From Achromobacter spanius (lineage in GTDB: Bacteria; Pseudomonadota; Gammaproteobacteria; Burkholderiales; Burkholderiaceae_B), in NCBI RefSeq assembly GCF_029637605.1, contig NZ_CP121261.1, forward strand, positions 682,001-746,000: 64,000 nucleotides of DNA. The letters are read 5' to 3'. Shown here in pieces: positions 59 through 63,323 of the stretch. The notes beneath the pieces were generated by a model. The model had not been told where the DNA came from and searched no databases. It saw nothing but the letters and a program-made list of their open reading frames with translations. Each line of letters starts with the position of its first letter. Within the stretch, counting starts at the first letter, position 1. The translations under genes and the position numbers were made by a program.

Positions 59-151
59 GATCGGACGGCCCGATCAGGGACCCCTTGATCAAGCGACCCG
101 ATCAAGCGACCCGATCAAGCGACCCGATCAGGCCGCCCGATCAGGCTACCC
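59..151. repeat. 13-bp tandem array over the glnD stop codon
   Basis: About seven copies of a 13-bp unit lie head to tail (starts near 59, 72, 87, 100, 113, 126 and 139; the copy at 72 is 15 bp). On the glnD strand the unit reads TGATCGGGTCGCT and its first TGA is the real glnD stop (143-141). Six copies keep the TGA. Since 13 is not a multiple of 3, the stops fall in all three frames. The copies at 87, 100 and 113 are identical, which suggests recent expansion. Confidence 0.9.
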
Positions 152-2747
152 GCTGTTGCGCCTCGTCGCCTGCCAGCGCGTCGAGGATGTCGCGTTCGAA
201 CTGCATCTGGATGCGGGGTCGCGCCAGCGCCGAGCCATCCACGATGAACACGTCTTCCACGCGGTCGCCCAGCGTCATGATCTTGGCCATCAGCAGGTTT
301 ATCTCGTGCTGGGCGAATACGCGCGCCAGGGCGTGCAGCAGGCCGGGGCGGTCGGTGGCGGTAACGGACAACCGCCACGACGTGCTGCGCTCGTCCGGCT
401 GCAGCTCGGCTTGCGGCATGACCGGGAACACGCGCGACACACGCGATTGCCGGTTACGGCCGTAGTAGCCGCCACGGCTGGGCTGCGCCTGGGCGGCGGC
501 GTGCGGATCTTTCAGGCGTTCCGCCAGTTCGTGTTCCACCAGCGTCGCCTGGGCGCGCAGGTCGCTGGCGCCCTCGGGCAGCAGCACGATAAAGCTGTCC
601 AGCGCCCAACCATGCCGCGTGGTGTGGATGCGCGCGTCTTGAATCGACAGGTTCTTGGCGTCGAAGTAGCCACAGATGGCCACGAACAGGTCCGGCGCAT
701 CGCGCGTGTAGACCATGATCTGCAGGCCTTCGCCTTGCTCGGTGGGACGCGCCTTGACCACCGCCTGGGCCGGCGCCACCTGGTGGTACAGGTGGCGCGT
801 GTGCCAGGCGATGTCCGAGGCGTCGTGGCGCAGGAAGTAGGCCACGTCCAACTGGTTCCAGAAGGCTTCGCGCGCGTCGTCGCGCAGGCCGGCCCGGCGC
901 GTCAGTCGGGCCGCTTCTTCCTTGCGCTCGGTCAGTACCGTGTGGGCGTCCGCATGGGCGCCGCCCAGCGCGGCCAGGGTCAGTTTGTACAGGTCTTCCA
1001 GCAGCTTGCCCTTCCAGGCGTTCCAGACCTTGGGGCTGGTCCCTCGGATGTCGGCCACCGTCAGCAGGTAGAGCGCCGTCAGATGGCGTTCGTCCTTCAC
1101 CGTGGCGGCGAAATCCTGCACGACGGCCGGGTCGGACAGGTCGCGCTTTTGCGCCACCGCCGACATCAGCAAGTGCTGGCGCACCAGGAATTCCACCAGC
1201 TTGGCGTCTTCGGGATCCATGCCGTGGTCTTGCGCGAACTTGCGCACTTCGCGGGCGCCGAGTTCGGAGTGGTCGCCGCCGCGGCCCTTGGCAATGTCGT
1301 GAAACAGCGCCGCCACGTACAGCAACCAGTGCCGGTCCAGGCCCGCAATCAATTGGCTGGCCAGCGGGTATTCCTGGGCGTGCTCGGGCATGGTGAAGCG
1401 GCGCAGGTTGCGCACCACCGCCAGCGTGTGCTGGTCCACCGTGTACGCGTGAAACAGGTCGTGCTGCATCTGGCCCACGATGCGGCGGAACACCGGCAGG
1501 TAGCGGGGCAGGATGTTCAGCATGGTCATGCGTCGCAGTTCGTGCACGATGCCGCGCGGCTGCTGCAGGATCTGCAAGAACAGCTTGCGGTTGACCGGGT
1601 TGCGGCGGAACTGCGCGTCGATACGATGGCGCGAATGCCAGATGGCGCGCAGCGTGCGCGCCGACATGCCGGTGAGTTCGGGGTGTTGCTGCATCACCAG
1701 GAAGGCGCGCAGCAGCAGGGTGGGGTTGCGTTCGAAACCGTCGTCGCGAATGATGTCCAGGCGGTCGCGCAGGTTGCGAAAATCGTCGTCGATGTCGCGC
1801 GCGTCGCTATCGGGGCGCGGGAACAGCCGCTCTTCGATGTTCTGCACCAGGATGCCGTTCAACTGCGTCACCAGGCGCGCGGCCCAGTAATAGCGCTGCA
1901 TCAGCAGTTCGCTGCCCCTCCGCGTGGCGGTGGCGTGGATGCCATAGACTTCGGCCAGCGCCGGCTGCAAATCGAACAGCACGCGGTCTTCGCGGCGGTT
2001 CGACAGCAGATGCAGTTCAATGCGCAGCCGCTTGAAGGCCTGTTCGGCCTTGCGCAGGTCGCGCGCTTCGGAAGAGGTCAGCAGGCCCGCTTGGGCGACC
2101 GACCGCCAACTATTGCCGAAACCGGCGGCGCGCGCCATCCACAAGATGACTTGCAGATCGCGCAAGCCCCCGGGCGATTCCTTGCAATTCGGTTCCAGCG
2201 CGTAAGGCGTGTCCTGGTAGCGCGCATGACGCTGCTGCATCTCGACCCGCTTGGCCAGGAAAAAGGCGCGCGGATCCAGCCGCGACTTGGTGGCGGCGTC
2301 GAACTTGCGCATCAGGATGCGGCTGCCCGCCAGCCATCGCGATTCCAGCAGCGCCGTTTCCACGGTGATGTCGGCATCGGCCTCGCGTTCGCAATCTTCA
2401 ATGGTGCGCACGCTGTGGCCGGGTTCCAGGCCCAGGTCCCACAGCGACGCCACCAGCCGTTCAATGGCCGATTCCTCTTCGGGCGTGGGGGCGTGCGGCA
2501 GCAGGATCAGCAGGTCGACGTCAGAGTGCGGATAAAGCTCGCCCCGGCCATAACCGCCCACCGCCGCCAGCGTGGCGCCCAAGGGTAGCGGGCAATGCTT
2601 GACCAGGTCGCGCAGCGCGGCGTCCACGATGCGCCGCAATTCGGACAACAGCGTGTCCGGGCGCTCGTGCTCGCGGAACTGGGTTACCGCGGCGCGTCGG
2701 GCTTGCTGAATGCGTTCACGCAGGGAGCTGAGGAATTCGGCGGTCAT
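141..2747 (-). CDS. glnD: Bifunctional uridylyltransferase/uridylyl-removing enzyme GlnD
   Basis: This 868-residue protein is the sensor of the nitrogen cascade. It uridylylates the PII proteins GlnB/GlnK when glutamine is low and removes UMP when glutamine is high. Visible parts in order are a nucleotidyltransferase core with GGYGRGEL and HSDVD around residues 64-78 (metal-binding aspartates D76 and D78), a GlnD linker domain, an HD hydrolase domain with LFHDIAKGRGGDH near residue 470, and two C-terminal ACT domains for glutamine sensing. The length is normal for the family. It lies 18 bp downstream of map on the same strand and is probably cotranscribed with it. Its stop codon is the first unit of the 13-bp repeat array. 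Confidence 0.97.
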   Translation of the reverse strand: MTAEFLSSLRERIQQARRAAVTQFREHERPDTLLSELRRIVDAALRDLVKHCPLPLGATLAAVGGYGRGELYPHSDVDLLILLPHAPTPEEESAIERLVASLWDLGLEPGHSVRTIEDCEREADADITVETALLESRWLAGSRILMRKFDAATKSRLDPRAFFLAKRVEMQQRHARYQDTPYALEPNCKESPGGLRDLQVILWMARAAGFGNSWRSVAQAGLLTSSEARDLRKAEQAFKRLRIELHLLSNRREDRVLFDLQPALAEVYGIHATATRRGSELLMQRYYWAARLVTQLNGILVQNIEERLFPRPDSDARDIDDDFRNLRDRLDIIRDDGFERNPTLLLRAFLVMQQHPELTGMSARTLRAIWHSRHRIDAQFRRNPVNRKLFLQILQQPRGIVHELRRMTMLNILPRYLPVFRRIVGQMQHDLFHAYTVDQHTLAVVRNLRRFTMPEHAQEYPLASQLIAGLDRHWLLYVAALFHDIAKGRGGDHSELGAREVRKFAQDHGMDPEDAKLVEFLVRQHLLMSAVAQKRDLSDPAVVQDFAATVKDERHLTALYLLTVADIRGTSPKVWNAWKGKLLEDLYKLTLAALGGAHADAHTVLTERKEEAARLTRRAGLRDDAREAFWNQLDVAYFLRHDASDIAWHTRHLYHQVAPAQAVVKARPTEQGEGLQIMVYTRDAPDLFVAICGYFDAKNLSIQDARIHTTRHGWALDSFIVLLPEGASDLRAQATLVEHELAERLKDPHAAAQAQPSRGGYYGRNRQSRVSRVFPVMPQAELQPDERSTSWRLSVTATDRPGLLHALARVFAQHEINLLMAKIMTLGDRVEDVFIVDGSALARPRIQMQFERDILDALAGDEAQQRVA

Positions 2748-20247: not shown

Positions 20248-20676
20248 ATGGCGTCATCGCAGTTTCATAGATTTCATGCGCGTTTTGCACGCGGGGCGCA
20301 GGGCTTGCTGCTGGCGTCTTGCGTGGTCGCGCTGGTGGGATGCATGTCGGTCAGCACGCAGAAGATCGGCATGGTCCCGGTGGCGGCGGCAGACCCCGTC
20401 TACACCATTCAACTGTCCAGGCTGGTCATCGCGTCGTTGCCGAACGAAAGCAGCGTAACGCTGCGGGCAGGCTCGCAATGGCGTCGCGTGGGCGCCTTGC
20501 CGCAGGGCGACGTCTACCGCGCCCAGGACGGCCTGTTCACGATTCAAACCCGGCGTCAGGGTGAGGCCTATCTGGTTGCCTCGTCGGGTCGGCTGCTCGG
20601 TTTTTACTTGCCGGGCGAAAGCGCGTATATGCCGCTTACCCGTCCTGTCACATTGCCCGTGGAGATGCGTCAATGA
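20248..20676 (+). CDS. Small putative lipoprotein
   Basis: I do not recognise a family. The product (142 residues from ATG 20248, with GAGGTGG just upstream) has a basic N-region, a hydrophobic stretch and a lipobox-like LVGC at about residues 29-32, so it is probably an envelope lipoprotein. The rest is soluble and beta-rich with no membrane segment. Its stop overlaps the start of the next lipoprotein gene in ATGA, so the two are coexpressed and may act together. A GTG two codons earlier is an alternative start. Confidence 0.65.
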   Translation: MASSQFHRFHARFARGAQGLLLASCVVALVGCMSVSTQKIGMVPVAAADPVYTIQLSRLVIASLPNESSVTLRAGSQWRRVGALPQGDVYRAQDGLFTIQTRRQGEAYLVASSGRLLGFYLPGESAYMPLTRPVTLPVEMRQ

Positions 20677-21143
20677 AATCGTGGTTCAAAGGCTTGGCGG
20701 CAGCCGCCATCGTGACCGTGCTGGCGGGTTGCGCCGGGGGCAAGTATGAAGCGCTGCAAGGCAGCATTCCGCCCATTGCCCAGGGTAATGGCCGCATCTA
20801 TTTCTATCAGCCGCAGCCGACCAATCTGGCAGCCGCGCAGCAGAAGATGCGCGTCAATGGCGAAGTGGTCGGACGCAATAAGCCCGGCGCCTTCTTCTTT
20901 GTTGACCGGCCTGCCGGCAGCTATGTCGTCACCAACCTGTACTGGACCGGCGACGGCGTGAGCTTCATGCTGGATCCCGGCCAGACGCGCTATATCCGCG
21001 TCATGGCCGAGGTGTATGGCGCCACGGGGGCCGTGGGCAATTTGTCGATGCATCTGGTTGATCCGCCGGAATTGGCAGAAAACGAAATGCGCGGCTTGCG
21101 CTATTGGGGGGCCGCGAGCCCCGAGCGGGTGCCAGGCCTGTAA
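20673..21143 (+). CDS. DUF2846-type lipoprotein
   Basis: A 156-residue protein with a clear lipoprotein signal (MKSWFKGLAAAAIVTVLAGC). The mature part (GRIYFYQPQ, VVGRNKPGAFFFVDRPAGSY, LDPGQTRYIRV) resembles DUF2846 envelope proteins, which have no settled function. The aspartate-free +2 region (C-A-G-G) suggests sorting to the outer membrane. It is translationally coupled to the preceding lipoprotein and ends against the convergent ppsR gene. Confidence 0.75.
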   Translation: MKSWFKGLAAAAIVTVLAGCAGGKYEALQGSIPPIAQGNGRIYFYQPQPTNLAAAQQKMRVNGEVVGRNKPGAFFFVDRPAGSYVVTNLYWTGDGVSFMLDPGQTRYIRVMAEVYGATGAVGNLSMHLVDPPELAENEMRGLRYWGAASPERVPGL

Positions 21144-21149
21144 GGCTAC

Positions 21150-21180
21150 GAGCGGGCAACCCGCTCAACCCGCTCAACCC
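21150..21180. repeat. 9-bp repeat and hairpin over the ppsR stop
   Basis: On the ppsR strand the stop lies in TTGAGCGGG, repeated twice exactly and followed by a decayed third copy, giving two in-frame TGA codons (21176-21174 and 21167-21165). GAGCGGG (21150-21156) also pairs perfectly with CCCGCTC (21160-21166) around CAA, a hairpin between two convergent genes. There is no T run. Confidence 0.75.
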
Positions 21181-22001
21181 CGATCCAGCCCCACTTCCTG
21201 CAGCACCGTCGTGGCGATCTCTTCGATCGACTTGGTGGTGCTGGACAGCCACGAAATGCCCTCGCGGCGCATCATGCGTTCGGCTTCGGCCACTTCGTAG
21301 CGGCACTGCTCTAGCTGCGCATAGCGGCTGTTGGGACGGCGTTCGTTACGCACTTCCGCCAGGCGTTCGGGCTGGATGGACAGCCCGAACAGCTTGCCGC
21401 GGTGCGGGGCGATGGTCGAGGGCAGGGTGCCGCGCTCGAAGTCATCGGGCGTCAGCGGGAAATTGGCCGCCTTGATGGCGTACTGCATGGCCAGGTACAG
21501 GCTGGTGGGCGTCTTGCCGCAGCGGGACACACCCACCAGAATGACGTCGGCCTGGTCCAGTTGATTGACGAACTGGCCGTCGTCATGCGCCAGGCTGAAG
21601 TTGATGGCGTCGATCCGGTTGCGGTATTTTTCCGAGTTGGCCTGCATGTGCGAGCGGCCGATGGAATGGCTGGACTTCAAGCCCAGCGCCTGTTCGATGT
21701 GGCTGACAAAGGTACCAAACAGGTCCATGAAGATGCCGTTCGCCTGGCGAACGCGCGCCAGGATCTCGGGGTTGACCAAGGTGCTGAACACAATGGGCGG
21801 CACGCCAGCTTCAAGCGCGCTGCGGTCGATGCGCATGGCGACCTCGGCCGCCTTCTCCAGCGTGTCGACAAAAGGCAGCCGGATGGGCTTGAATTCCACC
21901 TCTTCGAACTGGGACAGCACCGACTGGCTGAAGGTCTCGGCGGTGATGCCCGTGCTGTCGGAAACGATGTATACCGTGCGTGCGATCGGGGTAGATGTCA
22001 T
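21174..22001 (-). CDS. ppsR: PEP synthase regulatory protein (kinase/pyrophosphorylase)
   Basis: PpsR is a bifunctional ADP-dependent kinase and phosphate-dependent pyrophosphorylase that turns PEP synthase off and on by modifying a threonine next to its catalytic histidine. The 275 residues (DUF299) start RTVYIVSDSTGITAETFSQS, as expected, and have the P-loop VGVSRCGKTPTS at about residue 154. It is divergent from its target ppsA across 180 bp. The stop lies in a 9-bp repeat. Confidence 0.95.
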   Translation of the reverse strand: MTSTPIARTVYIVSDSTGITAETFSQSVLSQFEEVEFKPIRLPFVDTLEKAAEVAMRIDRSALEAGVPPIVFSTLVNPEILARVRQANGIFMDLFGTFVSHIEQALGLKSSHSIGRSHMQANSEKYRNRIDAINFSLAHDDGQFVNQLDQADVILVGVSRCGKTPTSLYLAMQYAIKAANFPLTPDDFERGTLPSTIAPHRGKLFGLSIQPERLAEVRNERRPNSRYAQLEQCRYEVAEAERMMRREGISWLSSTTKSIEEIATTVLQEVGLDRG

Positions 22002-22181
22002 GTGTAAAAAATTCCAACCAGTCAGATAGCCGAGGGTACTCCACCGAGTACAATCAGGCCCCTATAAGTCACCCCAAGGGCGGTCCAAGGCCAGTTTGGT
22101 CAGCGTCTGAAAAAGCGGGATTTTCCGCCGATTCGTGCTTTGACCTAACTCGCTTTCATTCCATTGTAAAAGGTGACTTCA

Positions 22182-24548
22182 ATGTCGTATGTTGTTTTGT
22201 TCGAGCAGCTCCGCATGACGGACGTGGACTCGGTAGGAGGCAAGAACGCATCACTAGGCGAAATGATCAGCCAGCTGTCTGGCGCGGGCGTCCGCGTGCC
22301 GGGCGGCTTTGCCACGACCGCCGACGCTTTCCGCGATTTCCTGAAGGCTTCGGGCTTGGATCAGCGCATTGCTGAACGCCTGACCACGCTGAACCCCGAA
22401 GACGTGCGCGAACTGGCCAACGCCGGTGCGCAGATTCGCCAATGGATCGTCGAAGCGCCGTTCTCGGCTGAATTCGAAGCACAAATCCGTGCAGCCTTTG
22501 CCAAGCTCGACGCTGACGGCAAGGGCTCGTTTGCGGTGCGCTCATCCGCCACGGCGGAAGACCTGCCCGATGCGTCCTTTGCCGGCCAGCAGGAAACCTT
22601 CCTGAACGTCGTGGGCATCGATGACGTGCTGGACAAGATCCGCCACGTGTTCGCCTCGCTGTACAACGACCGCGCCATTTCCTATCGCGTGCACAAGGGC
22701 TACGCCCACGCCGATGTGGCCCTGTCGGCCGGCATCCAGCGCATGGTGCGTTCCGACAAGGGCAGCGCCGGCGTCATGTTCACCATCGACACCGAATCCG
22801 GCTTTGAAGACGTCGTGTTCATCACGTCGTCGTACGGCCTGGGCGAAACCGTGGTGCAAGGCGCGGTCAACCCCGACGAGTTCTACGTCTTCAAGCCCAC
22901 GCTGGCCCAAGGCAAGTTCCCCATCGTTGGCCGTCGCATCGGCTCCAAGCTGATCAAGATGGAATTCGACCCCGAGCGTCCGGAAGGCCGCGCCGTGCGT
23001 ACCGTGGACGTGCCCGTGTCCGAGCGCAACCGCTACTCGCTGACCGACGACGAGGTCAATGAACTGGCCCGCTATGCCGTCATCATCGAACAGCACTACA
23101 AGCGCCCGATGGACATCGAATGGGGCCGTGACGGTGTCGACGGCAAGATCTACATCCTGCAAGCGCGCCCGGAAACGGTGAAGTCGCAGCAGGGCGTGAA
23201 CGATGTGCAGCAACGCTACCGCCTGAAGGCCACCGGCCAGGTCCTGATCACCGGCCGCGCAATCGGTCAGAAGATCGGCGCAGGCCCCGTGCGCGTGGTG
23301 GGCGACATCTCCGACATGGACAAGGTCCAGCCGGGCGACGTGCTGGTCACCGACATGACGGACCCCAACTGGGAACCCGTGATGAAGCGTGCCGCGGCCA
23401 TCGTGACGAACCGTGGCGGCCGTACCTGCCACGCCGCGATCATTGCGCGCGAACTGGGCATTCCGGCTGTGGTGGGTTGCGGTAACGCCACCGACCTGCT
23501 GAAGGAAGGCCAGGCCGTGACCGTGTCTTGCGCGGAAGGCGACGAAGGCCGCATCTATGACGGCCTGATCGAAACCGAAGTGGAAGAAGTGCGCCGCGGC
23601 GAAATGCCCGCCATCGATCTGAAGATCATGATGAACGTGGGCAACCCGCAACTGGCCTTCGACTTCGCGCAGATTCCGAACGGCGGCGTGGGCCTGGCGC
23701 GTCTGGAATTCATCATCAACAACAACATCGGCATCCACCCGAAGGCAGTCCTGGACTACCCGAACGTGGACGGCGAACTGAAGAAGGCCGTGGAATCGGC
23801 CGCCCGTGGGCATGCCAGCCCGCGCGCGTTCTTCGTTGAAAAGATGGCCGAAGGCGTGGCGACGATTGCCGCTGCGTTCTACCCGAAGCCAGTCATCGTG
23901 CGCATGTCGGACTTCAAGTCCAACGAATACCGCAAGCTGGTGGGCGGTTCGCGCTACGAGCCCGAGGAAGAGAACCCCATGCTGGGCTTCCGTGGCGCAT
24001 CGCGCTACATCGCCGAGGACTTCGCCGAGTGCTTCCGCATGGAATGCGAAGCGCTGAAGAAGGTTCGCGACGACATGGGCCTGACCAACGTTGAAATCAT
24101 GGTGCCGTTCGTGCGCACGCTGGGTCAGGCCGAGAAGGTTGTGAACCTGCTGGCCAAGCACGGCCTGGCGCGCGGTGAAAACGGCCTGAAGCTGATCATG
24201 ATGTGCGAAGTGCCGTCCAACGCCATCCTGGCCGACGAATTCCTGCAATTCTTCGACGGCTTCTCGATCGGTTCCAACGACATGACCCAGCTCACCCTGG
24301 GCCTGGACCGCGATTCCGGCATGGAGCTCCTGGCCGCCGACTTCGACGAACGCGACGAAGCCGTGAAGTTCATGCTGCGCCGCGCGATCAAGGCTTGCCT
24401 GGCCGCCAACAAGTACGTGGGTATCTGCGGCCAAGGCCCCAGCGACCACCCGGACTTCGCGCAGTGGTTGAAGGACGAGGGCATTCTGTCGATGTCGCTC
24501 AACCCGGATACCGTGGTCGACACCTGGCAGCGCCTGGCCAAGCAATAA
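22182..24548 (+). CDS. ppsA: Phosphoenolpyruvate synthase
   Basis: PpsA converts pyruvate, ATP and water to PEP, AMP and phosphate for gluconeogenesis. From ATG 22182 ([20 protein letters not shown]) the protein has 788 residues: an N-terminal ATP-grasp domain ([20 protein letters not shown]), the swivelling domain with the phosphohistidine motif [11 protein letters not shown], whose TCH is the PpsR target pattern, and the C-terminal PEP/pyruvate barrel ending with [17 protein letters not shown] and the CGQGPSDHP cysteine. A strong terminator follows. Confidence 0.97.
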
Positions 24549-24565
24549 GCGGCTAAGCCCCCAAC

Positions 24566-24604
24566 AAAAAGCCCTGCATCGTTATTGGTGCAGGGCTTTT
24601 TTTC
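24566..24604. terminator. Bidirectional terminator between ppsA and the ada-like gene
   Basis: AAAAAGCCCTGCA (from 24566) pairs with TGCAGGGCTTTTTTT (24589-24603). It has an A run on one side and a T run on the other, so it can serve both convergent genes. Confidence 0.92.
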
Positions 24605-24632
24605 GTCAGGAGTCGGGGTAGGGGAAGGCGAG

Positions 24633-25478
24633 CTAGGCCGCCTTCAATTCGCGCGCGATCAACTCGCGCTTGCGGTCCACGCCCCAGCGATAGCCCGCCA
24701 TCGACCCGTCGGTGCGGACGACGCGATGGCAAGGGATGGCCAGCGCGATGCTGTTGGTGGCGCAGGCGCGTGCCACCGCCCGCACGGCGCGCGGCGAGCC
24801 GATGCGTTCGGCCACTTGCGAGTAGGTGGCGGTGGTGCCCACGGGAATGTCGCGCAGCGCTTCCCACACCCGGCGCTGGAAGGCGGTGCCGCGCACGTCC
24901 AGGGGCAGGTCCAGCCCGCGCGACGGGTCTTCAACAAAGCCCACCACGGCCGCCACCCAGGTTTCGAATTCGTCGTCGGCCCCGATCAGCCGGGCGGCCT
25001 TGAAGCGGTCTTGCAAGTTACGCACCAGTTGTTCGGGGTCGGCGTCCAGGGCGATCTCGCAGATGCCGGTACCGGTGGCCGCCACCAGCAGCGCGCCCAG
25101 CGAGCACTGCGCCACCGCGAAGCGGATGTCGATGCCCGCGCCGTTTTTGCGGAAGGCAGTGGGCGTCATGCCCAGGATGGCGGGGGCGGCCTCGTAGAAG
25201 CGGCCGCTGGAATTGAAGCCCGCGTCATACATCGCGTCGGTGACGCTGGCGCTGCGTTCCAATTGCAGGCGCGCGCGGCTGGCGCGCAGCGCGTTGGCGT
25301 AGGCCTTGGGGGTGATGCCCGTAGCTGCCTTGAAGACGCGGTGAAAGTGAAAGCGGCTCATGCCGGCCTGTTCGGCCAGCGTGTTCAGGTCGGGCGGCTG
25401 CTCGGCCTCCAGGGCGCGGCAGGCGCGCTCGACGGCGGCAGCGTGCTGTTTGCTCAAGGGGGCGGCGGCGTGGCTCAT
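24633..25478 (-). CDS. Ada-like AraC regulator/O6-methylguanine-DNA methyltransferase, N-domain absent
   Basis: The 281-residue protein joins an AraC-type helix-turn-helix (about residues 10-105, MSRFHFHRVFKAATGITP) to an O6-methylguanine-DNA methyltransferase domain with acceptor motif PCHRV (Cys250). It lacks the roughly 80-residue zinc-binding N-domain of E. coli Ada, whose Cys38 takes methyl from phosphotriesters and switches the protein to an activator. Direct repair should be intact, but methyl-triggered activation through Cys38 is not possible. GATase follows in the same orientation upstream. Confidence 0.88.
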   Translation of the reverse strand: MSHAAAPLSKQHAAAVERACRALEAEQPPDLNTLAEQAGMSRFHFHRVFKAATGITPKAYANALRASRARLQLERSASVTDAMYDAGFNSSGRFYEAAPAILGMTPTAFRKNGAGIDIRFAVAQCSLGALLVAATGTGICEIALDADPEQLVRNLQDRFKAARLIGADDEFETWVAAVVGFVEDPSRGLDLPLDVRGTAFQRRVWEALRDIPVGTTATYSQVAERIGSPRAVRAVARACATNSIALAIPCHRVVRTDGSMAGYRWGVDRKRELIARELKAA

Positions 25479-25571
25479 ACGTGACTCCTGACATGCGCGG
25501 GGTGGATTGCGCTTGGGTCCATCGTCTCAGTCCCCGCCGGGCGCCGCACTCCGGATGTTGCGCGCGGCCGT

Positions 25572-26309
25572 TCAGGCGGGCGCGTAGGCGTCCAGGAAAC
25601 GGCGCAGCAGCCCGCCCGCCACCGGAGTGGCGCGCACGTTCGCCGTCAGGTCGGGAATATCCAGGTTTTCGGCCGCGTACCGGCGGCTGTAGCGGTCCAG
25701 GTGGGCGCGCACGAAATCAGGGCCGAATTCGGGATGGAACTGGGTGGAAAAGACGTTACGGCCGATGCGGATCATTTGGTGCTCGTCCAGGTCCGAGCGC
25801 GCCAGCACGGCCGAGCCGGGCGGTGGTTGCAACACGGTCTGGGCATGCAGCATCTGCGCGGGGAAGGTGCGAGGCAGGCTGGCCAGCAGCTTGTCGCCAG
25901 AGGCTGGCGGCAGCAATTCGACGGTTTGGGTGCCGACTTCGCGGCCCGCCGGGTTGTAGCCCACCTTGCCGCCCAGCGCATACGCCAGCAACTGGTGGCC
26001 ATAGCAAACGCCGAACATGGGCAGTTCAGCGGCGGCGGCTTCGCGCAGCCACGCGGCGGTGTCTTCGCTCCAGGGTTCCTTGTCCGTGACCATGGCGGGC
26101 GAACCCGTGATCAGCGCGGCGCGGTAGTGGGCGGGGGGCTGGGGGCGTTGGCCCTCGTGGACGGAGACGATTTCGACGGCGTCGGCGGCCAGTCCGGCCG
26201 CTTCTTTCAATTGTTCGGCATAGCCGCCGAACTGGCTTTTAAGTGTGTCTTCCGGATCGCCGGTGTGCAGGATCAAGACGGGCAGGGCAGGGGATATTGC
26301 AGCGGTCAT
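25572..26309 (-). CDS. Class I glutamine amidotransferase-like protein
   Basis: This 245-residue stand-alone GATase resembles the glutaminase domain of GMP synthase. The nucleophile elbow GVCYGHQ has Cys102 and the partner triad residues are in FSTQFHPEF near residue 192. No synthetase domain is attached and no obvious acceptor enzyme is adjacent, so the ammonia-accepting or gamma-glutamyl substrate is unknown. Some relatives hydrolyse gamma-glutamyl compounds; that is only a possibility here. Confidence 0.85.
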   Translation of the reverse strand: MTAAISPALPVLILHTGDPEDTLKSQFGGYAEQLKEAAGLAADAVEIVSVHEGQRPQPPAHYRAALITGSPAMVTDKEPWSEDTAAWLREAAAAELPMFGVCYGHQLLAYALGGKVGYNPAGREVGTQTVELLPPASGDKLLASLPRTFPAQMLHAQTVLQPPPGSAVLARSDLDEHQMIRIGRNVFSTQFHPEFGPDFVRAHLDRYSRRYAAENLDIPDLTANVRATPVAGGLLRRFLDAYAPA

Positions 26310-26477
26310 GGGTAGGTGTGCTTGGAATAGGCCGACACGGGCAATCCGGGTGGGATCGGCGCGTCAGGGCACATCATAATCCAGCGCAAACATTCCTGAT
26401 GGCGGCTGCCTTACCGTTGCGTCCCGGAAATACGTACAATCCGCACACGACTCATCCTTTCGGGCGGCATTACGACT

Positions 26478-26915
26478 ATGTGGATCTGGCTGGGATTGGC
26501 CGCGCTGGCCCTTATCGGGGAATTGGCGACGGGTACTTTCTATCTGCTGCTGGTGGCCCTGGGGCTGGCGGCAGCCGGGGCCGCCGCCTGGTTCGGCAGT
26601 GGCCTGGAATGGCAATTGGTGGCGTGTGGCGTGGTGTTGCTGCTGGGCTTGCTGGTGTTGCGCAAGACGCGCGTGCTGAAAAAGCGCGAGGTCAATTCCG
26701 CGCGTAACGCCGATGTGAATCTGGACATCGGCCAGACGGTTTCCGTGGATTCGTGGTCCGAACACGGCACCACCCGCGTCTGGTATCGCGGCGCCCATTG
26801 GCAGGCAGAACTGGCGCCGGGGCAAACGCCCGCCGCCGGCGAATACATCATTACCGAACTGCGCGGCTCGACCCTGGTGCTGACGCCCATGGCCGCGCCG
26901 GGTACGGCAAGGTAG
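26478..26915 (+). CDS. NfeD-family membrane protein
   Basis: A 145-residue protein with an N-terminal membrane region of two or three helices (residues 1-62, starting MWIWLGLAALALIGEL) and a C-terminal OB-fold domain (GQTVSVDSWSEHGTTRVWYR) typical of short NfeD proteins. NfeD proteins pair with SPFH proteins, and one follows 88 bp downstream. The pair is thought to organise membrane microdomains or membrane protein quality control. Confidence 0.9.
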   Translation: MWIWLGLAALALIGELATGTFYLLLVALGLAAAGAAAWFGSGLEWQLVACGVVLLLGLLVLRKTRVLKKREVNSARNADVNLDIGQTVSVDSWSEHGTTRVWYRGAHWQAELAPGQTPAAGEYIITELRGSTLVLTPMAAPGTAR

Positions 26916-27003
26916 AACCGGCTCGCGCCACGCGCGGCCCGCAAGGCGCTCTTGGCTTCAGGCCGGAGCGCCATCGCATTTACTCCAGGAGAGGTTCCAA
27001 ATC

Positions 27004-27930
27004 ATGATCGATACATCCACTATCGTCCTGCTCGTTGTTGTCGCGCTGGCGGTCCTGATCGTCATCAAGTCGATTGCCATCGTGCCCCAACAGCATGCCT
27101 GGGTGGTCGAGCGCCTGGGTAAGTTCGACCGCGTGCTGTCGCCCGGCGCGGGCTTTGTCATTCCCTTCATCGAGCGCGTGGCCTACAAGCATTCGTTGAA
27201 GGAAATTCCGCTGGACGTGCCCAGCCAGGTCTGCATCACGCGTGACAACACGCAGTTGCAGGTTGATGGCGTGCTGTACTTCCAGGTGACTGATCCGATG
27301 CGCGCGTCGTACGGCTCGTCGAACTACATCTCGGCCATTACGCAGTTGTCGCAAACCACCCTGCGTTCGGTCATCGGCAAGATGGAACTGGACCGCACCT
27401 TTGAAGAGCGCGATTCCATCAACAGCAACATCGTGTCGTCGCTGGATGAGGCCGCGCTGAACTGGGGCGTGAAGGTGCTGCGCTACGAGATCAAGGACTT
27501 GACGCCGCCCAACGAGATCCTGCGTTCGATGCAGGCGCAAATTACCGCCGAACGTGAAAAGCGTGCGCTGATCGCGGCCTCGGAAGGCCGCCGCCAGGAA
27601 CAGATCAACATCGCCACCGGCGAACGCGAAGCCGCCATTGCCCGTTCGGAAGGCGAGAAGCAGGCGCAGATCAACCAGGCGCAAGGTGAAGCCGCCGCGG
27701 TGCTGGCCATTGCCGAAGCCACCGCCAAGGCCATTACGCAGGTGGCCGACGCCGTGCGCCAGCCGGGCGGCATGGAAGCCGTCAACCTTAAGGTGGCCGA
27801 ACGCTACGTCGAGGCATTCGCCAATGTGGCCAAGGAAGGCAACACGCTGATCCTGCCGGCCAATATGTCGGACGTGGGCGGCATGATTGCCTCGGCCATG
27901 ACCATCGTGAAAGCCACGCGCAACACCTGA
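27004..27930 (+). CDS. SPFH-domain paraslipin (QmcA-like)
   Basis: A 308-residue inner-membrane protein of the stomatin/paraslipin group. It has one N-terminal membrane segment (about residues 5-25), the SPFH domain starting VPQQHAWVVERLGKFDRVLS, and a coiled coil rich in ERE/KQAQ repeats near residues 175-245. Such proteins form large rings at the membrane and bind NfeD partners or FtsH. AGGAGAGG lies before the ATG. It is the expected partner of the upstream nfeD gene. Confidence 0.92.
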   Translation: MIDTSTIVLLVVVALAVLIVIKSIAIVPQQHAWVVERLGKFDRVLSPGAGFVIPFIERVAYKHSLKEIPLDVPSQVCITRDNTQLQVDGVLYFQVTDPMRASYGSSNYISAITQLSQTTLRSVIGKMELDRTFEERDSINSNIVSSLDEAALNWGVKVLRYEIKDLTPPNEILRSMQAQITAEREKRALIAASEGRRQEQINIATGEREAAIARSEGEKQAQINQAQGEAAAVLAIAEATAKAITQVADAVRQPGGMEAVNLKVAERYVEAFANVAKEGNTLILPANMSDVGGMIASAMTIVKATRNT

Positions 27931-27955
27931 CCCCGCGCTTCGCGGCGCGCCGCCC

Positions 27956-29137
27956 ATGATCGCTCCCGTTAATTTGCTTTTGATAGCAGCACTGGCGGGG
28001 GTGCTATCGCTCTGCGTGCTGGGGTCGCTGGCTCGCAGCGGCATGGCCGGCATCCGCGAAACCATACGCGCCAACTTGCTAACGCTGTTGGCGTTTTTTA
28101 CGTTTGCGCTCCAGAACACGTCGGCGCCCTGGTGGTTGTCGGTGGTGGTGCCGAACGCGGCGATCGGGCTTGCGCTGTTCTCGTATTACTCGGGCGTGCG
28201 GCGGCTGTTGGGTTTAAGCGTGCCCAAGCACCTGATGACGCTGGCTTGCCTGCTGGCGCTGGTGGTGCTGCTGGCCTACACCTATGTGGATTGGCGGGTC
28301 GGGCCGCGCATCGTGGTGATGTCGCTGCTGCAAATGGGCTTTCTGCTGGCGGTGGCAGTCACGGTTCAGCGCAACATGCCTACGCACCGTTCCCGCTACA
28401 GCTACCGTTTCGTGTGGGCGGTGTCTGTCATTTCCGCGGCGCTCTGCGCGTTGCGGGCCGCCGTCTATCTGCTGGAATGGGCGCTGCCGTTGCCGTTGCT
28501 GGAGCCCAGCGCCTGGAACATCGCCTTCCTGACCCTGGGCGTGCTGATCATGCCGTGTCTGACGCTAGGCACCATCATGATCATCCACGACCGCATGCTG
28601 GCAGACCGCGAGCAGGAAGCGAATACGGATTTCCTGACGGGGTTGATGTCGCGCAAGGCGTGGTGGCTGCAGGCCGAGCGCTATTGCGCGCAGGCGCTGC
28701 GCACGCGGCGGCCCTTGACCTTGCTGCTGCTGGATGTCGATTACTTCAAGCGCATCAACGATACGCATGGCCATGTGGCGGGTGATGCCGTGCTGCGCCA
28801 TTTTGGCTTGCTGGCTACCGCCACATTACGTACGGGTGACCATGTCGGCCGCGTGGGTGGCGAGGAGTTCGGCGTGTTGTTTCCGGACATGCGGGCCGAC
28901 GCCGTCATGGACGTGGCGGCCCGGTTGCTGGACTCCGTGCGGCGCACCCCTTGCTCGCATGGTGGCAGCACCATTTCCTATACGTTCAGCGCGGGCGTGG
29001 CCGAATGGGTGCCCGGCGAAAACCTGCAGGTGTTCTTCGAGCGCGCCGACCGCAAGCTTTACAGAGCCAAGGAGGCGGGGCGCAACCGCATCGTCGGGCC
29101 GGGCGAGCCGGCCAACCGCTTGCCGGCGGCGGCCTGA
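27956..29137 (+). CDS. Membrane-bound diguanylate cyclase
   Basis: The protein makes c-di-GMP from two GTP. Residues 1-215 hold about six hydrophobic membrane helices without a known sensor name, and residues 225-385 form a GGDEF domain. The active site is GGEEF (301-305). The inhibitory site RTGD sits five residues before it (292-295), so product feedback inhibition is likely. Length is 393 residues. It starts 25 bp after the paraslipin gene but may have its own control. It is convergent with smpB. Confidence 0.93.
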   Translation: MIAPVNLLLIAALAGVLSLCVLGSLARSGMAGIRETIRANLLTLLAFFTFALQNTSAPWWLSVVVPNAAIGLALFSYYSGVRRLLGLSVPKHLMTLACLLALVVLLAYTYVDWRVGPRIVVMSLLQMGFLLAVAVTVQRNMPTHRSRYSYRFVWAVSVISAALCALRAAVYLLEWALPLPLLEPSAWNIAFLTLGVLIMPCLTLGTIMIIHDRMLADREQEANTDFLTGLMSRKAWWLQAERYCAQALRTRRPLTLLLLDVDYFKRINDTHGHVAGDAVLRHFGLLATATLRTGDHVGRVGGEEFGVLFPDMRADAVMDVAARLLDSVRRTPCSHGGSTISYTFSAGVAEWVPGENLQVFFERADRKLYRAKEAGRNRIVGPGEPANRLPAAA

Positions 29138-29156
29138 ATCAAACGGTGTGGATGAG

Positions 29157-29226
29157 TCGGTCTGGTTCAGTCGGCCTGGTTCAGTCGGCCTGGTTCAATC
29201 GGCTTGGTTCAAGCGGGCTGGTTCAA
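29157..29226. repeat. 14-bp tandem array over the smpB stop
   Basis: Five 14-bp units are in tandem (starts 29157, 29171, 29185, 29199, 29213). On the smpB strand each reads like TGAACCAGGCCGAC, and the first TGA is the real stop (29225-29223). The five TGA codons are spaced by exactly 14 bp and so cover all three frames. Differences between copies are one to three bases. The array fills most of the gap to the convergent diguanylate cyclase gene. Confidence 0.93.
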
Positions 29227-29696
29227 TCGTCCTTGTCTTTGCGCGGCGCGCGCGTGTCGTGCTTCATGATGCGTTCTTTCTCACGCTGCCAGTCTTTTTC
29301 GCGCGCGGTGTCGCGCTTGTCGAACAGCTTCTTGCCACGGCCCAGCGCGAAGTCCAGCTTGATGCGCCCATTTTTGTAGTGCAGGTTCAGCGGCACCAGC
29401 GTGTAGCCGCGCTGCTCGACCTTGCCGATGAGCTTGCTGATTTCCTCGGCCTTGAGCAACAGCTTGCGCGTGCGCATGGCATCGGGGTGAATGTGGGTGG
29501 ACGCCGTGGGCAGCGGGCTGACGTGCATGCCCAGCAGGTACAGTTCGCCGTCGCGTACGATGACGTAGCTTTCCTTTAGCTGCACGCGGCCGTCACGGAT
29601 CGCTTTGACTTCCCAGCCTTGCAGGACAAGGCCGGCTTCGTAGCGGTCTTCAATGAAATAGTCGTGCGAGGCCTTGCGGTTGTCGATAATGCTCAT
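29223..29696 (-). CDS. smpB: SsrA-binding protein SmpB
   Basis: SmpB brings tmRNA to stalled ribosomes in trans-translation. The 157-residue protein has the OB-fold core ([20 protein letters not shown], then [16 protein letters not shown]) and the basic C-terminal tail (about residues 130-157) that enters the mRNA channel. It lies opposite ratA-rnfH, a neighbourhood conserved in proteobacteria. Both ends are unusual: the stop is in a 14-bp array and the start is in an 18-bp array with a 12-codon ORF overlapping it. Confidence 0.97.
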
Positions 29697-29760
29697 AACG
29701 CCTTTTTGCGCTTAGCGCCTTTTTTGCTCATAACGCCTTTTTTCTGGATAACGCCAATTT
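29685..29760. repeat. 18-bp imperfect direct repeats over the smpB start
   Basis: On the smpB strand the units are GGCGTTATCCAGAAAAAA, GGCGTTATGAGCAAAAAA, GGCGCTAAGCGCAAAAA and then GGCGTTATGAGC, which is the real start. GGCGTTATGAGC is thus present twice, 35 bp apart. The A-rich part of each unit leads into GGCG, which may serve as a weak ribosome binding context. Confidence 0.8.
29693..29731 (-). CDS. Possible 12-residue leader peptide upstream of smpB
   Basis: The repeated start region opens a short [15 protein letters not shown], whose TGA overlaps the smpB ATG as ATGA. It is strongly basic (six Lys/Arg). It may be an accidental product of the repeat or a translated uORF that couples initiation to smpB. 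There is no direct evidence of translation. Confidence 0.3.
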
Positions 29761-29842
29761 GCTCGCTGCAAAAAGCGCCTCATTAGGCTCATGGTGCGCG
29801 GTGCCGGTAAAATCTTGCCATTCTAGCCATTTGCGATAGTCG

Positions 29843-30277
29843 ATGCACAAAGTACAACGATCCGTCCTGGTGCCTTACAGCGCCGCCCAGATGTTCGACC
29901 TGGTTGCCGACGTGGAGAAGTACCCCGAGTTCATGCCGTGGTGCGGCGGGGCCGAGGTGCAAAGCCGCGATGAGCACGGCATGCAGGCCTCCATCCTGAT
30001 CAGTTTTGCGGGCATGAAGCAGCGCTTCACCACGCGCAACACCCACGTCTATCCCGACCGGATCGACCTGGAACTGGTGGATGGCCCGTTTTCCAGCCTG
30101 GTCGGGCATTGGGAATTCCAACCCTTGGCGGAAGACGCCTGCAAGGTCCTGTTCACCATGGAGTACGCGTTTTCGAACCGCGCGCTTGAAATGGTGGTGG
30201 GGCCCGTCTTCAACCGTATCGCCACCAGCTTCATTGATTCCTTCACCAAGCGGGCGCAGGCCAAGTATGGCGAATGA
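29843..30277 (+). CDS. ratA: RatA/COQ10-like START-domain protein
   Basis: The 144-residue protein has one START/polyketide-cyclase-like lipid-binding domain (KVQRSVLVPYSAAQMFDLVA, then EKYPEFMPWC). E. coli RatA was reported to block 70S ribosome assembly, while eukaryotic COQ10 relatives bind ubiquinone; which role applies here is open. It overlaps rnfH (ratB) by 11 bp, the usual ratAB pair, and lies divergent from smpB across 146 bp. The symbol follows this context. Confidence 0.9.
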   Translation: MHKVQRSVLVPYSAAQMFDLVADVEKYPEFMPWCGGAEVQSRDEHGMQASILISFAGMKQRFTTRNTHVYPDRIDLELVDGPFSSLVGHWEFQPLAEDACKVLFTMEYAFSNRALEMVVGPVFNRIATSFIDSFTKRAQAKYGE

Positions 30278-30614
30278 GCCCTCCGTGGCCGCGCTGATCA
30301 ACGTCAGCGTCTGCTATGCCTTGCCGGGCCATGTGTGGTTGCGCGAACTGCGCCTGCCCGAGGGCGCCACCGTGTCCGACGCGTTGGCGGCCAGCGGGTT
30401 CGCGCAAGCGTTTCCCGTGGTGCAAGCTTGGGAGCGGGGCGTGGGTATTTTCGGCAAGGCGGCCGAGCCGCAGTCCAGACTGGCGGAAGGTGACCGCGTT
30501 GAAATCTATCGTGGCCTGAGCTTCGACCCGAAGGAATCACGCCGCCGTCGCGCCGAACACCGGCGCGCCAAGACGGCCAGGAACGGCCGGGTGCGGCCAG
30601 CCGGGCTGCTGTGA
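30267..30614 (+). CDS. rnfH: RnfH/RatB-family ubiquitin-like protein
   Basis: A 115-residue member of the RnfH family, a beta-grasp fold of unknown molecular role. The core (SVCYALPGHVWLRELRLPEG, then GDRVEIYRGLSFDPKESRRR) is typical, and the C-terminal tail is highly basic (RRRRAEHRRAKTARNGRVR), longer than in many relatives. It starts inside ratA and is translationally coupled. Its TGA opens the 14-bp array that follows. Confidence 0.9.
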   Translation: MANEPSVAALINVSVCYALPGHVWLRELRLPEGATVSDALAASGFAQAFPVVQAWERGVGIFGKAAEPQSRLAEGDRVEIYRGLSFDPKESRRRRAEHRRAKTARNGRVRPAGLL

Positions 30615-30675
30615 TCGGGCAGCTGTAACCGAGCTGCTGAAATCTGGCTGCTGTAATCGAGCCGCTGTAACACGC
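30606..30675. repeat. 14-bp tandem array over the rnfH stop
   Basis: Five 14-bp units: CTGCTGTGATCGGG, CAGCTGTAACCGAG, CTGCTGAAATCTGG, CTGCTGTAATCGAG and CCGCTGTAACACGC. Every unit has a stop triplet at or next to the same place; the first TGA (30612-30614) is the rnfH stop and others are TAA. The first stop-containing piece TGATCGGGCAGC differs by one base from the glnD unit TGATCGGGCGGC 30 kb away. Confidence 0.88.
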
Positions 30676-30775
30676 CGGCGCGCCTCACGCGCGCTGGGCG
30701 CTCGCCCGGGCCGACATTGTCACTATTAAGACAAATCCCGTCCGGGCATCCGGCGTAACATAAACGCGGTTTCAT

Positions 30776-30799
30776 ATTTACGTTTACGTTAACGTCATG
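30776..30799. promoter_or_regulatory. LiuR-like operator before the valine operon
   Basis: The perfect palindrome ACGTTAACGT (30786-30795) lies in TTTACGTTAACGTCAT, about 80 bp before the acyl-CoA dehydrogenase start, with a partly overlapping second half-site (TTTACG at 30778). LiuR, a MerR-type regulator of branched-chain amino acid catabolism in proteobacteria, binds sites of this kind as I recall. No liuR gene is in the window, so the regulator is inferred. Confidence 0.6.
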
Positions 30800-30876
30800 C
30801 CAAAATCGACCGGCGGACGTTCACGAGACAACCCGCTACGCCAACAGACAACACCGACACCATCAGGAGACAGGCT

Positions 30877-32031
30877 GTGGACTTGGAACTGACCGACGAG
30901 CAGCGCGCGTTTGCGCAGGCCGCCCGCGACTATGCCGAGGGTGAACTGGCCCCCCATGCCGCGCGCTGGGACGCCGAGGGCATCTTTCCCCGCGAGGCCT
31001 TTGCCCGGGCCGGCGAAATGGGCTTCTGCGCCATCTATGCCAGCGAAGACATCGGCGGCCTGGGCCTGCCGCGCCTGGACGCCACCCTGGTGTTCGAGGA
31101 AATGGCCGCGGTGGACCCGTCGACCACGGCCTTCCTGACCATCCACAACATGGCGACGTGGATGGTCGGCAAATGGGGGCAGCCTGCCTTGCGCGAGGCC
31201 TGGGGCCCGCAACTCGCCAGCGGCCAGAAGCTGGCGTCGTACTGCCTGACCGAGCCCGGCGCGGGTTCCGACGCCGCGTCCCTGTCCACGCGCGCGCAGC
31301 GCGATGGTGACGATTACGTGCTGAACGGCGCCAAGGCCTTTATTTCGGGCGGGGGCGACACCGACCTGCTGGTGGTCATGGCGCGCACCGGAGGCGAGGG
31401 CGCAAGCGGCATCAGCGCATTCGCGGTGCCCGCCGACACCCCGGGCATCAGCTACGGCCGCAAAGAAGAAAAAATGGGCTGGAACAGCCAGTCCACGCGG
31501 CCCATCACTTTCGAGAACGTGCGCGTGCCGGCCGGCAACCTGCTGGGCCAGGAGGGCGAAGGCTTCAAGATCGCCATGAAAGGGCTGGACGGCGGCCGCA
31601 TCAATATCGGCACCTGCTCGGTGGGCGCGGCCCAGGGCGCGCTGGACGCCGCGCGCCGCTACATGGACGAGCGCCACCAGTTCAACCGCCGCCTGGCGGA
31701 ATTCCAGGCGCTGCAATTCAAGCTGGCGGACATGGCCACCCACCTGGTCGCGGCGCGCCAGATGGTGCGCCTGGCCGCCTGCAAGCTGGATGCCGGCGCG
31801 CCGGATGCTGCCACCTATTGCGCCATGGCCAAGCGCTTCGCCACCGACATGGGATTTCAGATCTGCCTGGACGCGCAACAGATACACGGCGGTTATGGCT
31901 ACCTGAAGGACTATCCCTTGGAGCGCTTGGTGCGCGATACTCGCGTTCATCAGATTCTGGAGGGCACCAACGAGATCATGCGCGTGATCATTGCCCGCCA
32001 ATTGTTGGAAAAAGGAGCCGACATAAGATGA
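30877..32031 (+). CDS. Acyl-CoA dehydrogenase, probably isobutyryl-CoA dehydrogenase
   Basis: A 384-residue FAD enzyme that should oxidise isobutyryl-CoA to methacrylyl-CoA in valine breakdown. It starts at GTG (30877) after AGGAGACA. The FAD-binding block (YCLTEPGAGSDAASLSTRA), QFNRRLAEFQALQFKLADMA and the C-terminal catalytic glutamate in QILEGTNEIMRVIIARQLL are present. Two valine-pathway genes follow, which supports the substrate. The stop overlaps the next start by 3 bp. Confidence 0.88.
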   Translation: MDLELTDEQRAFAQAARDYAEGELAPHAARWDAEGIFPREAFARAGEMGFCAIYASEDIGGLGLPRLDATLVFEEMAAVDPSTTAFLTIHNMATWMVGKWGQPALREAWGPQLASGQKLASYCLTEPGAGSDAASLSTRAQRDGDDYVLNGAKAFISGGGDTDLLVVMARTGGEGASGISAFAVPADTPGISYGRKEEKMGWNSQSTRPITFENVRVPAGNLLGQEGEGFKIAMKGLDGGRINIGTCSVGAAQGALDAARRYMDERHQFNRRLAEFQALQFKLADMATHLVAARQMVRLAACKLDAGAPDAATYCAMAKRFATDMGFQICLDAQQIHGGYGYLKDYPLERLVRDTRVHQILEGTNEIMRVIIARQLLEKGADIR

Positions 32032-35392: not shown

Positions 35393-35475
35393 CGCTGCCG
35401 GATGCTGGGTGAGCAGGCTGCCGGTGCCGGGTTGGCAGGCTGCCAGCGGGATGCCGGATTGGCAGGTTGCCCGCT
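35393..35475. repeat. Imperfect 22-27 bp repeats between two convergent genes
   Basis: Three related units (35393, 35416, 35438) share GGCTGCC...GCCGGGTTGGCA, and a fourth begins at 35465. They start directly after the TAG of the VIT gene and end near the ygfZ stop. Unlike the other arrays, the units do not each contain a stop codon. Confidence 0.65.
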
Positions 35476-35486
35476 GGAGCGCTGGT

Positions 35487-61897: not shown

Positions 61898-63223
61898 TCA
61901 GTCGCGGTTCGGGCCGCCGCCTCGGCCATCGCCCCTGCCTTCGCCCCTGCCTTCGCCGCCGCCTTGCTGGCGCTGCTGAGGATGTTCGCGTGCCTGCTGC
62001 GGGCGAGCTTGTTGCTGCGGACGGTCTTGCTGCGGGCGCGCTTGCGCCTGTTGTCGGGGCTGTTCGCGCGCTTGTTGCTGTCGCGCTTGCTGCTGACGCG
62101 CCTGCTGCTCCCGGGCTTGGTGTTCCCGTGCCTGTTGCTGGCGTGCCTGCTGCTGTTGCTGTTCGCGGCCTTGCTGCTGGCGTTGCTCGCGCTCCTGCTG
62201 CTGGCGTACTTGTTGCTGTCGATCTTGTTGCTGCTGCTGACGAGCCTGCTGATCACGCGCCTGCTGTTGGCGCGATTGCTGCAAGGCGGCTTGTTGATCT
62301 CGCTGTTGATCGCGTTGCTGTTGATCCCGCTGCGATACATCGCGTCCCGGCGACGGCCCCGGGCCTCGGGCCTGTTCTCCACGACCTGGGTTGTTGCCGC
62401 GATCGACGTCGGGGCGCTTGTTGTCGCCACCGGGGCGTGGCCCTTGCGAGGGTCGCCCGTTGTCGCGATGGTCCACGAAGGCTTGCGGCGGGCGGCCCTT
62501 GTTGTGGTCGTAGAACTGCGCGCGGTTGCTGCCGGCATCGCGGACGTAGCGGCGTTGGATGTCGGTGGGCGGCGCGTGGCGGTCTTTGCGGGCAGCCAGT
62601 TCGCGCGGGTCTGCCGCGCGTCGGATGCCGTTGGGGCCGCCGTGATAGCTGACACGTCGGTTATCGATGTTGTTGACGACCACGGTGTGGTTGTACACGT
62701 TGGTGACGCGCGTGACGTTCACGTTGGTCACCGAGCGGTTGTAGTAGAAGCGGTCGCGCTTCCAGTAGCCGCCTACATACCCCAGGCCCACATAGCCAAA
62801 GCCGTAGTTGATGCCGCCATAAAAGCCGACGTGGGGGCCCCAATAGCCGGCGTTCCACACGTACAGGCCATTGGTGAAGCCCCAGTAACCAGGCGTCCAG
62901 AGCGCGCCGGCGTAGGGGGCGAGCACCCAGGCGCCCGGCACCCAGAAAAAGCCGTACTGATTGCGGCTCCAGTAGCCGGGCACCCACATATAACCATCGG
63001 CCGGCGCGGGTGGCTGCACGTAGACGGGCAGGGGTGGAGGCGGCTCGGGGCTGCGGTCCACCAAGGCAAGATTGGCGCTGGCGGGGTCGCCGCCGTCATA
63101 GGCGGGCGCCACGGGTGCGGGAGGCGGCGCGTACGTTTGCGCCATCGCGCCCGCGCATAGCGTCAGCAGCGTGACGGCCGCCACGGCGGGGCGAAGCAGG
63201 GAGATCCGGATAGAGGGCGTCAT
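61898..63223 (-). CDS. YXWGXW-repeat exported protein with a long Gln/Arg tail
   Basis: A 441-residue protein. A signal peptide (MTPSIRISLLRPAVAAVTLL, cut near AMAQT) is followed by a Pro-rich stretch and YXWGXW-type repeats with many Trp/Tyr (GYMWVPGYWSRNQYG, WVPGAWVLAPYAGALWTPGY, WNAGYWGPHVGF) at about residues 75-160. Residues 285-425 are almost entirely Gln, Arg, Ala and Glu, encoded by repetitive CTG/TTG-rich DNA. The tail should be disordered and basic. Function unknown. The reading frame is open further upstream through the repeat array, but the signal peptide fixes the start. Confidence 0.85.
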   Translation of the reverse strand: MTPSIRISLLRPAVAAVTLLTLCAGAMAQTYAPPPAPVAPAYDGGDPASANLALVDRSPEPPPPLPVYVQPPAPADGYMWVPGYWSRNQYGFFWVPGAWVLAPYAGALWTPGYWGFTNGLYVWNAGYWGPHVGFYGGINYGFGYVGLGYVGGYWKRDRFYYNRSVTNVNVTRVTNVYNHTVVVNNIDNRRVSYHGGPNGIRRAADPRELAARKDRHAPPTDIQRRYVRDAGSNRAQFYDHNKGRPPQAFVDHRDNGRPSQGPRPGGDNKRPDVDRGNNPGRGEQARGPGPSPGRDVSQRDQQQRDQQRDQQAALQQSRQQQARDQQARQQQQQDRQQQVRQQQEREQRQQQGREQQQQQARQQQAREHQAREQQARQQQARQQQAREQPRQQAQARPQQDRPQQQARPQQAREHPQQRQQGGGEGRGEGRGDGRGGGPNRD

Positions 63224-63235
63224 GGCAGCTCCTGG

Positions 63236-63323
63236 AACACGTCGCAACGGACGGTCAATAACGCGACGGTCAATAACGCAAGGGTCAATAACGACGCAAG
63301 GGTCAACAACGCGACGGTCAATA
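63236..63323. repeat. 15/18-bp tandem array over the stop of a tiny lipoprotein gene
   Basis: On the minus strand the units begin TGACCGTCGCGTTGT, TGACCCTTGCGTCGTTAT, TGACCCTTGCGTTAT and TGACCGTCGCGTTAT. TGA codons lie at 63320, 63305, 63287, 63272 and 63257; spacings are 15, 18, 15 and 15 bp, all in frame with the lipoprotein stop. The array fills nearly the whole gap to the next gene. Confidence 0.9.

Follow-up and report, generated by a model that had tools for sequence, protein, structure and literature searches.

Tandem repeat arrays over stop codons in Achromobacter spanius are very probably ordinary short minisatellites

Minisatellite or VNTR loci occur in bacterial genomes as head-to-tail copies that vary in number, with in-frame periods inside genes and any period outside them. 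As far as the excerpts of two reports go, slippage has been proposed for the long simple sequence repeats of prokaryotes studied by Mrazek and colleagues, units that are multiples of three are favoured in coding regions, and in most genomes heptanucleotides outnumber every other class (PMC4679880, PMC12699852). The excerpted report on marine Beggiatoaceae describes intergenic TAACTGA direct repeats, whose unit contains stops and which lie mostly just before start codons (PMC4679880). Thirteen of these cases overlap the stop of the upstream gene, which its authors regard as necessary, since forward repeats stop all three frames (PMC4679880).

The DNA analysed here, a window of 64,000 nucleotides, comprises positions 682,001 to 746,000 of the Achromobacter spanius genome (GCF_029637605.1, NZ_CP121261.1), a single contig of 6,474,880 bp. 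A preliminary description had reported that five genes in this window end inside tandem repeats, and Tandem Repeats Finder (TRF) and direct reading of the sequence agree on all five, with units of 9 to 15 bp. The gene names glnD, ppsR, smpB and rnfH were confirmed with NCBIfam, and the fifth gene encodes a putative lipoprotein. A comparison of SmpB places named Achromobacter genomes closest. The 3′ array of smpB is placed between this gene and a convergent GGDEF gene (GGDEF stop 29135-29137). A specific link of such arrays to stops was not confirmed, however: the same window holds one array over the start of smpB, which falls below our 2.4-copy filter, and a repeat lying wholly between two genes. 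In addition, the Gln/Arg-rich C-terminal part of a predicted protein (61898-63223) is made of in-frame 12-24-bp repeats.

Table 1. Tandem repeats in the 64,000-nucleotide window (window coordinates)
Feature	Position	Strand	Unit, copies and context	Source
glnD 3′ end array	87-152	-	13 bp, 5.1 copies; stop 141-143	TRF + sequence
ppsR 3′ end repeat	21157-21180	-	9 bp, only 2.7 copies; stop 21174-21176	TRF + sequence
smpB 3′ end array	29157-29233	-	14 bp, 5.5 copies; stop 29223-29225	TRF + sequence
smpB start array	29690-29764	-	17-18 bp; covers start codon and ribosome-binding region; unit with ATGAGC	TRF
rnfH 3′ end array	30602-30670	+	14 bp, 4.9 copies; stop 30612-30614	TRF + sequence
27-bp two-copy repeat	35425-35478	.	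wholly between two convergent genes; without the stop of either	TRF
In-frame coding repeats	61925-62274	-	periods 12, 15 and 24; inside Gln/Arg-rich protein gene	
Putative lipoprotein (56 aa) 3′ end array	63246-63323	-	15 bp, 5.1 copies, one 18-bp spacing inside; stop 63318-63320	TRF + sequence

The placement of arrays was examined in samples of three genomes of the genus, totalling 2.0 Mb. For the source genome (G000) we combined sixty 20-kb stretches with the window (1.264 Mb, 1128 genes called; about 18.5% of the genome was sampled besides the window), and 400 kb each was taken from G036, G037 and a further genome used for comparison, G007. Arrays were detected with TRF, and genes were called with a home-made codon-score caller rather than a standard annotation. 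Arrays that were less than 50% noncoding, had periods outside 6-40 or had no flanking gene in the stretch were dropped ahead of counting. Multi-copy arrays were required to reach a score of 50 and 2.4 copies, while the loosest set admitted two-copy repeats and any score of at least 40. Exact noncoding duplications of at least 11 bp exceed chance, none appearing when the noncoding sample was simulated five times with a Markov-2 model.

When arrays are placed uniformly over noncoding DNA, window included, those containing a stop are in excess (12 of 43 against 5.4 expected, p=0.005) and those containing a start are few (1 against 6.0). We read this excess as a reflection of depletion near starts. 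The uniform control includes promoter and start regions that are poor in arrays, and therefore each array was instead slid within its own spacer, leaving out arrays in divergent spacers, where no stop is possible. With the window excluded, multi-copy arrays of the three genomes contain a stop in 19 of 70 cases against 14.8 expected (p=0.11), those of the source genome alone in 8 of 32 against 7.0 (p=0.39), and arrays with a score of at least 70 in 11 of 41 against 10.7 (p=0.53). Exact duplications of at least 11 bp, window included, yield 7 of 37 against 6.5 (p=0.48). Including the window brings the three-genome set with scores of at least 50 to a borderline result (22 of 73 against 16.3, p=0.043). 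For the loosest set the result is 36 of 143 against 25.4 (p=0.008) without the window and 40 of 148 against 28.0 (p=0.004) with it. Recurrence at stops had been thought hard to assign to chance; in these samples neither multi-copy nor exact arrays are significantly anchored at stops, and a weak excess remains in short, low-score repeats. The window is an unusually stop-rich draw: all four of its noncoding arrays that reach the score and copy thresholds (50 and 2.4) contain a stop, compared with 8 of 39 outside it.

The history of the arrays was followed in relatives, using 30 loci for each of smpB, rnfH, glnD and ppsR, out of 42 genomes with a match, and 7 of the 41 genomes with a match to the lipoprotein. 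Ancestral units, copy numbers and ppsR hairpins in these relatives are all by-eye readings, and draft assemblies may collapse array copies. The glnD array is present in G000, G035 and G037 and missing from 27 of 30 same-genus loci, own genome counted. Relatives carry a single-copy form, ...GTCGCC-TGA-TCCGG, corresponding to the 13-bp unit TGATCGGGTCGCC/T; copies have been homogenised differently in G000 and G035, and the first stop in G037 is TAA. The smpB 3′ array occurs in G000 and G035 only among 30 loci and is missing from G037 despite an identical SmpB. In many relatives the end of smpB reads TGATTCA, with the stops of the two convergent genes almost coinciding, and the array unit TGAACCAGGCCGAC resembles their TGATTCAGGCCGCC, which carries both stops. 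The rnfH array, missing from 27 of 30 loci, has the same unit in G000 and G035, while G036 has a different, TAG-containing 14-mer; the single-copy form in relatives is ...GGGCTGCTG-TAG/TAA. For the lipoprotein, whose single-copy form is TATTGACCGTCGCC, one copy is seen in G036, G018, G013 and G016, two to three in G037 and about five in G000 and G035. The array units of glnD, smpB, rnfH and the lipoprotein gene, although not that of ppsR, thus match the gene's own stop-spanning sequence in relatives (by eye).

At orthologous places found by BLAST of the sampled stretches, array length differs by more than 3 bp in 19 of the 21 noncoding rows and in 15 of the 18 coding ones. In these counts places found from both sides count twice, gaps above 1 kb or negative, which are implausible, were scored as different, and a few stop-touching arrays fall in the coding class. 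Lineage specificity and length differences between close species support the minisatellite reading.

Two further loci were read by eye in the same comparison. At the start of smpB, related repeats are found in G000 and G036, with fewer copies in G035, G037, G013 and G018; G030 has an unrelated array there with ATG in its unit, which seems to have arisen separately. Apart from G000, G035 and G037, about 21 of 27 genomes have a GC hairpin near the stop of ppsR (window 21131-21180). These three lack the hairpin, and the RNA of the G000 repeat can form a GC stem of its own, GAGCGGG/CCCGCTC.

We consider it very probable that the arrays are ordinary short minisatellite (VNTR-type) repeats produced by local tandem duplication rather than a stop-codon device. 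A local sequence, mostly of 11-16 bp, would be duplicated in tandem in place, probably by replication slippage, and copies would afterwards be gained, lost and partly homogenised, presumably as neutral changes. Tandem duplications would be tolerated at any length outside genes and in frame inside them. Whatever its length, a duplication across a stop does not alter the protein and therefore survives as it would elsewhere in the 3′ spacer. After a stop-bearing segment has been duplicated, translation terminates in its first copy, so the first unit necessarily holds the true stop. Periods divisible by three make up 143 of 164 coding, 52 of 121 noncoding and 10 of 27 stop-containing cases (three genomes, window included), and noncoding periods gather at 12-16 bp (59 of 117). 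At scores of at least 40, 52 of 170 arrays lie in convergent spacers, which make up 30.3 of 223.4 kb of spacer, and 27 of 170 in divergent spacers, which make up 57.9 kb; the array counts exclude the window and the spacer lengths include it. Arrays seldom cover starts or occupy divergent spacers, their periods in coding sequence are mostly multiples of three, and convergent spacers are enriched in them; for these reasons they look stop-anchored in a compact genome. Of the preliminary proposal that slippage is tolerated only beyond stops, the tolerance is supported and the restriction to stops is not; slippage itself we infer.

The density of such duplications varies across the genus. Exact duplications of at least 11 bp number 43 in the 1.264 Mb of G000 (window included), 22 in G036 and 16 in G037 (400 kb each), or 34, 55 and 40 per Mb. 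None was found in 400 kb of G007, a contrast with a conditional p of about 7e-6 that is one of several looked at; the three short gene loci of G007, 12.9 kb in all, contain one. The loci of 31 other genus members contain 8 in 335 kb, that of G007 included, and 60 kb each of G035 and G005 contain 2 and 0. Array counts in the 400-kb samples are 31 for G036 (L164-L183; 60.4 per 100 kb noncoding) and 4 for G007 (L144-L163; 9.2). At the named loci, the counts are 8 in 214 kb of Achromobacter, 9 in 184 kb of Bordetella and near kin, 9 in 553 kb of other Alcaligenaceae and unassigned and 6 in 536 kb of Burkholderiaceae. This grouping covers 78 of 80 loci, all but L235 and L252, and a single array can give several rows (L184: periods 13, 24 and 48). 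These densities indicate that density is not special to the closest kin of this genome, and that G007 is the low one. It is conceivable, although we incline somewhat against it, that Achromobacter lineages differ sharply in the mutational process that makes 11-16 bp tandem duplications. If so, a difference in polymerase, nuclease or repair would set unit size and rate, remodelling intergenic sequence including gene ends.

Several other explanations were weighed against the minisatellite reading. Repeated stops in successive frames might have been selected as a fail-safe to catch readthrough or slipping ribosomes, and indeed the 13- and 14-bp units place later stops in other frames and all four scored later positions of glnD are TGA. 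The preliminary description held that almost every later unit repeats a stop, which is true of glnD, most of smpB and the lipoprotein gene; overall, however, later copies keep the stop triplet at only 40 of 70 positions, where the remaining triplets of those units predict 35.1 (no formal p), and 44 of 70 have any stop triplet (33 array-stop pairs, window included). Retention of later stops does not clearly exceed that of their neighbours, multi-copy arrays show no significant stop excess, the 10 of 27 periods divisible by three repeat the stop in one frame only, and 28 of 30 loci lack the smpB array and 27 of 30 the glnD array. Triplet retention and period classes fit duplication filtered by protein integrity; selection for extra stops was not detected, and we give next to no credence to the fail-safe proposal, which these two measures do not support. 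A gene-end site for an RNA-binding protein, small RNA or transcription terminator is very unlikely as well. The RNA of the glnD array (window 81-155) is predicted to form a very stable hairpin (-46.2 kcal/mol, z -5.7 against shuffles) and the ppsR GC stem has a z of -1.5, but smpB (-1.2), rnfH (+0.75) and the lipoprotein array (0.01) fold much like shuffled sequences. No intrinsic terminator (GC stem then T run) lies inside the ppsR, smpB or rnfH arrays, the three within the scan of 20500-32000, with the glnD and lipoprotein arrays outside it. The units, described at first as similar on the gene strand, share a weak and post hoc likeness (mean pairwise matches of post-stop hexamers 2.80 vs 1.67 for random TGA genes, p=0.009), and no dispersed common unit was seen among the three words counted, TGATCGGG occurring 6 times in 147,855 noncoding sample positions on both strands. 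The lack of a shared unit and the shuffle-like folding of three arrays count against a common protein or RNA site, as does the absence of the glnD, smpB and rnfH arrays from 27, 28 and 27 of 30 loci. Single arrays may nevertheless have effects, given the folding of glnD and the position of the ppsR array at the place of the relatives' hairpin.

Duplications could also be made more often at gene ends by a mutational hot spot there, through termination-linked breaks for instance, beyond what tolerance would explain. The density of array edges, whose positions are approximate, is highest between about -15 and +60 relative to the stop, with a peak at -3 to +10 (19.0 per 1000 ends per 10 bp, with 11-15 in neighbouring bins), and declines with distance; the loosest set retains its excess of 36 of 143 against 25.4. 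However, no such excess is seen among exact duplications, which are presumably young (7 of 37 against 6.5), and the promoter of the next gene confounds any trend with distance from the stop; we regard a hot spot as rather unlikely. It is improbable, too, that the first duplication was made by Ku-dependent end joining with fill-in of staggered breaks. The Ku family is found in 40 of 43 same-genus genomes, but these include the array-poor G007 and G005, and the presence of Ku alone therefore fails to explain the strong density contrast. Y-family polymerases (PF00817) were likewise rejected as the cause of the species differences: they are present in 42 of the 43 genomes, with two copies in 36 of 42, and G007, G005, G000, G036 and G037 have two alike. 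Neither family separates G007 from the other genomes.

A stop-codon device would have been new; the pattern, once tested, mostly follows from where duplications are tolerated. The case also carries a caution, as compact genomes crowd repeats at gene ends and stop-spanning duplicates always look anchored on the stop. If the difference in duplication density between species holds, it could open the origin of minisatellites in bacteria to testing, and the arrays themselves might be of use for strain typing. A search by title and abstract start in the open-access literature found no treatment of stop-overlapping arrays in Achromobacter or Bordetella. In the excerpts at hand, the repeats of Mrazek and colleagues resemble these arrays in their multiple-of-three coding units and in the slippage proposed for them, whereas the units here are mostly 12-16 bp and often degenerate. 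The TAACTGA repeats, again as excerpted, are likewise intergenic direct repeats with stops in the unit, some overlapping the stop of the upstream gene, but they are one dispersed heptamer, while each Achromobacter array has its own local unit. A stop-codon device is not supported, and what remains is a known kind of repeat at new loci. With minisatellite or VNTR loci there is no categorical difference, variation here being seen between species, not strains, in collections of one genome per species; both have head-to-tail copies beyond chance, copy numbers that differ between relatives, in-frame periods in coding sequence and any period outside it.
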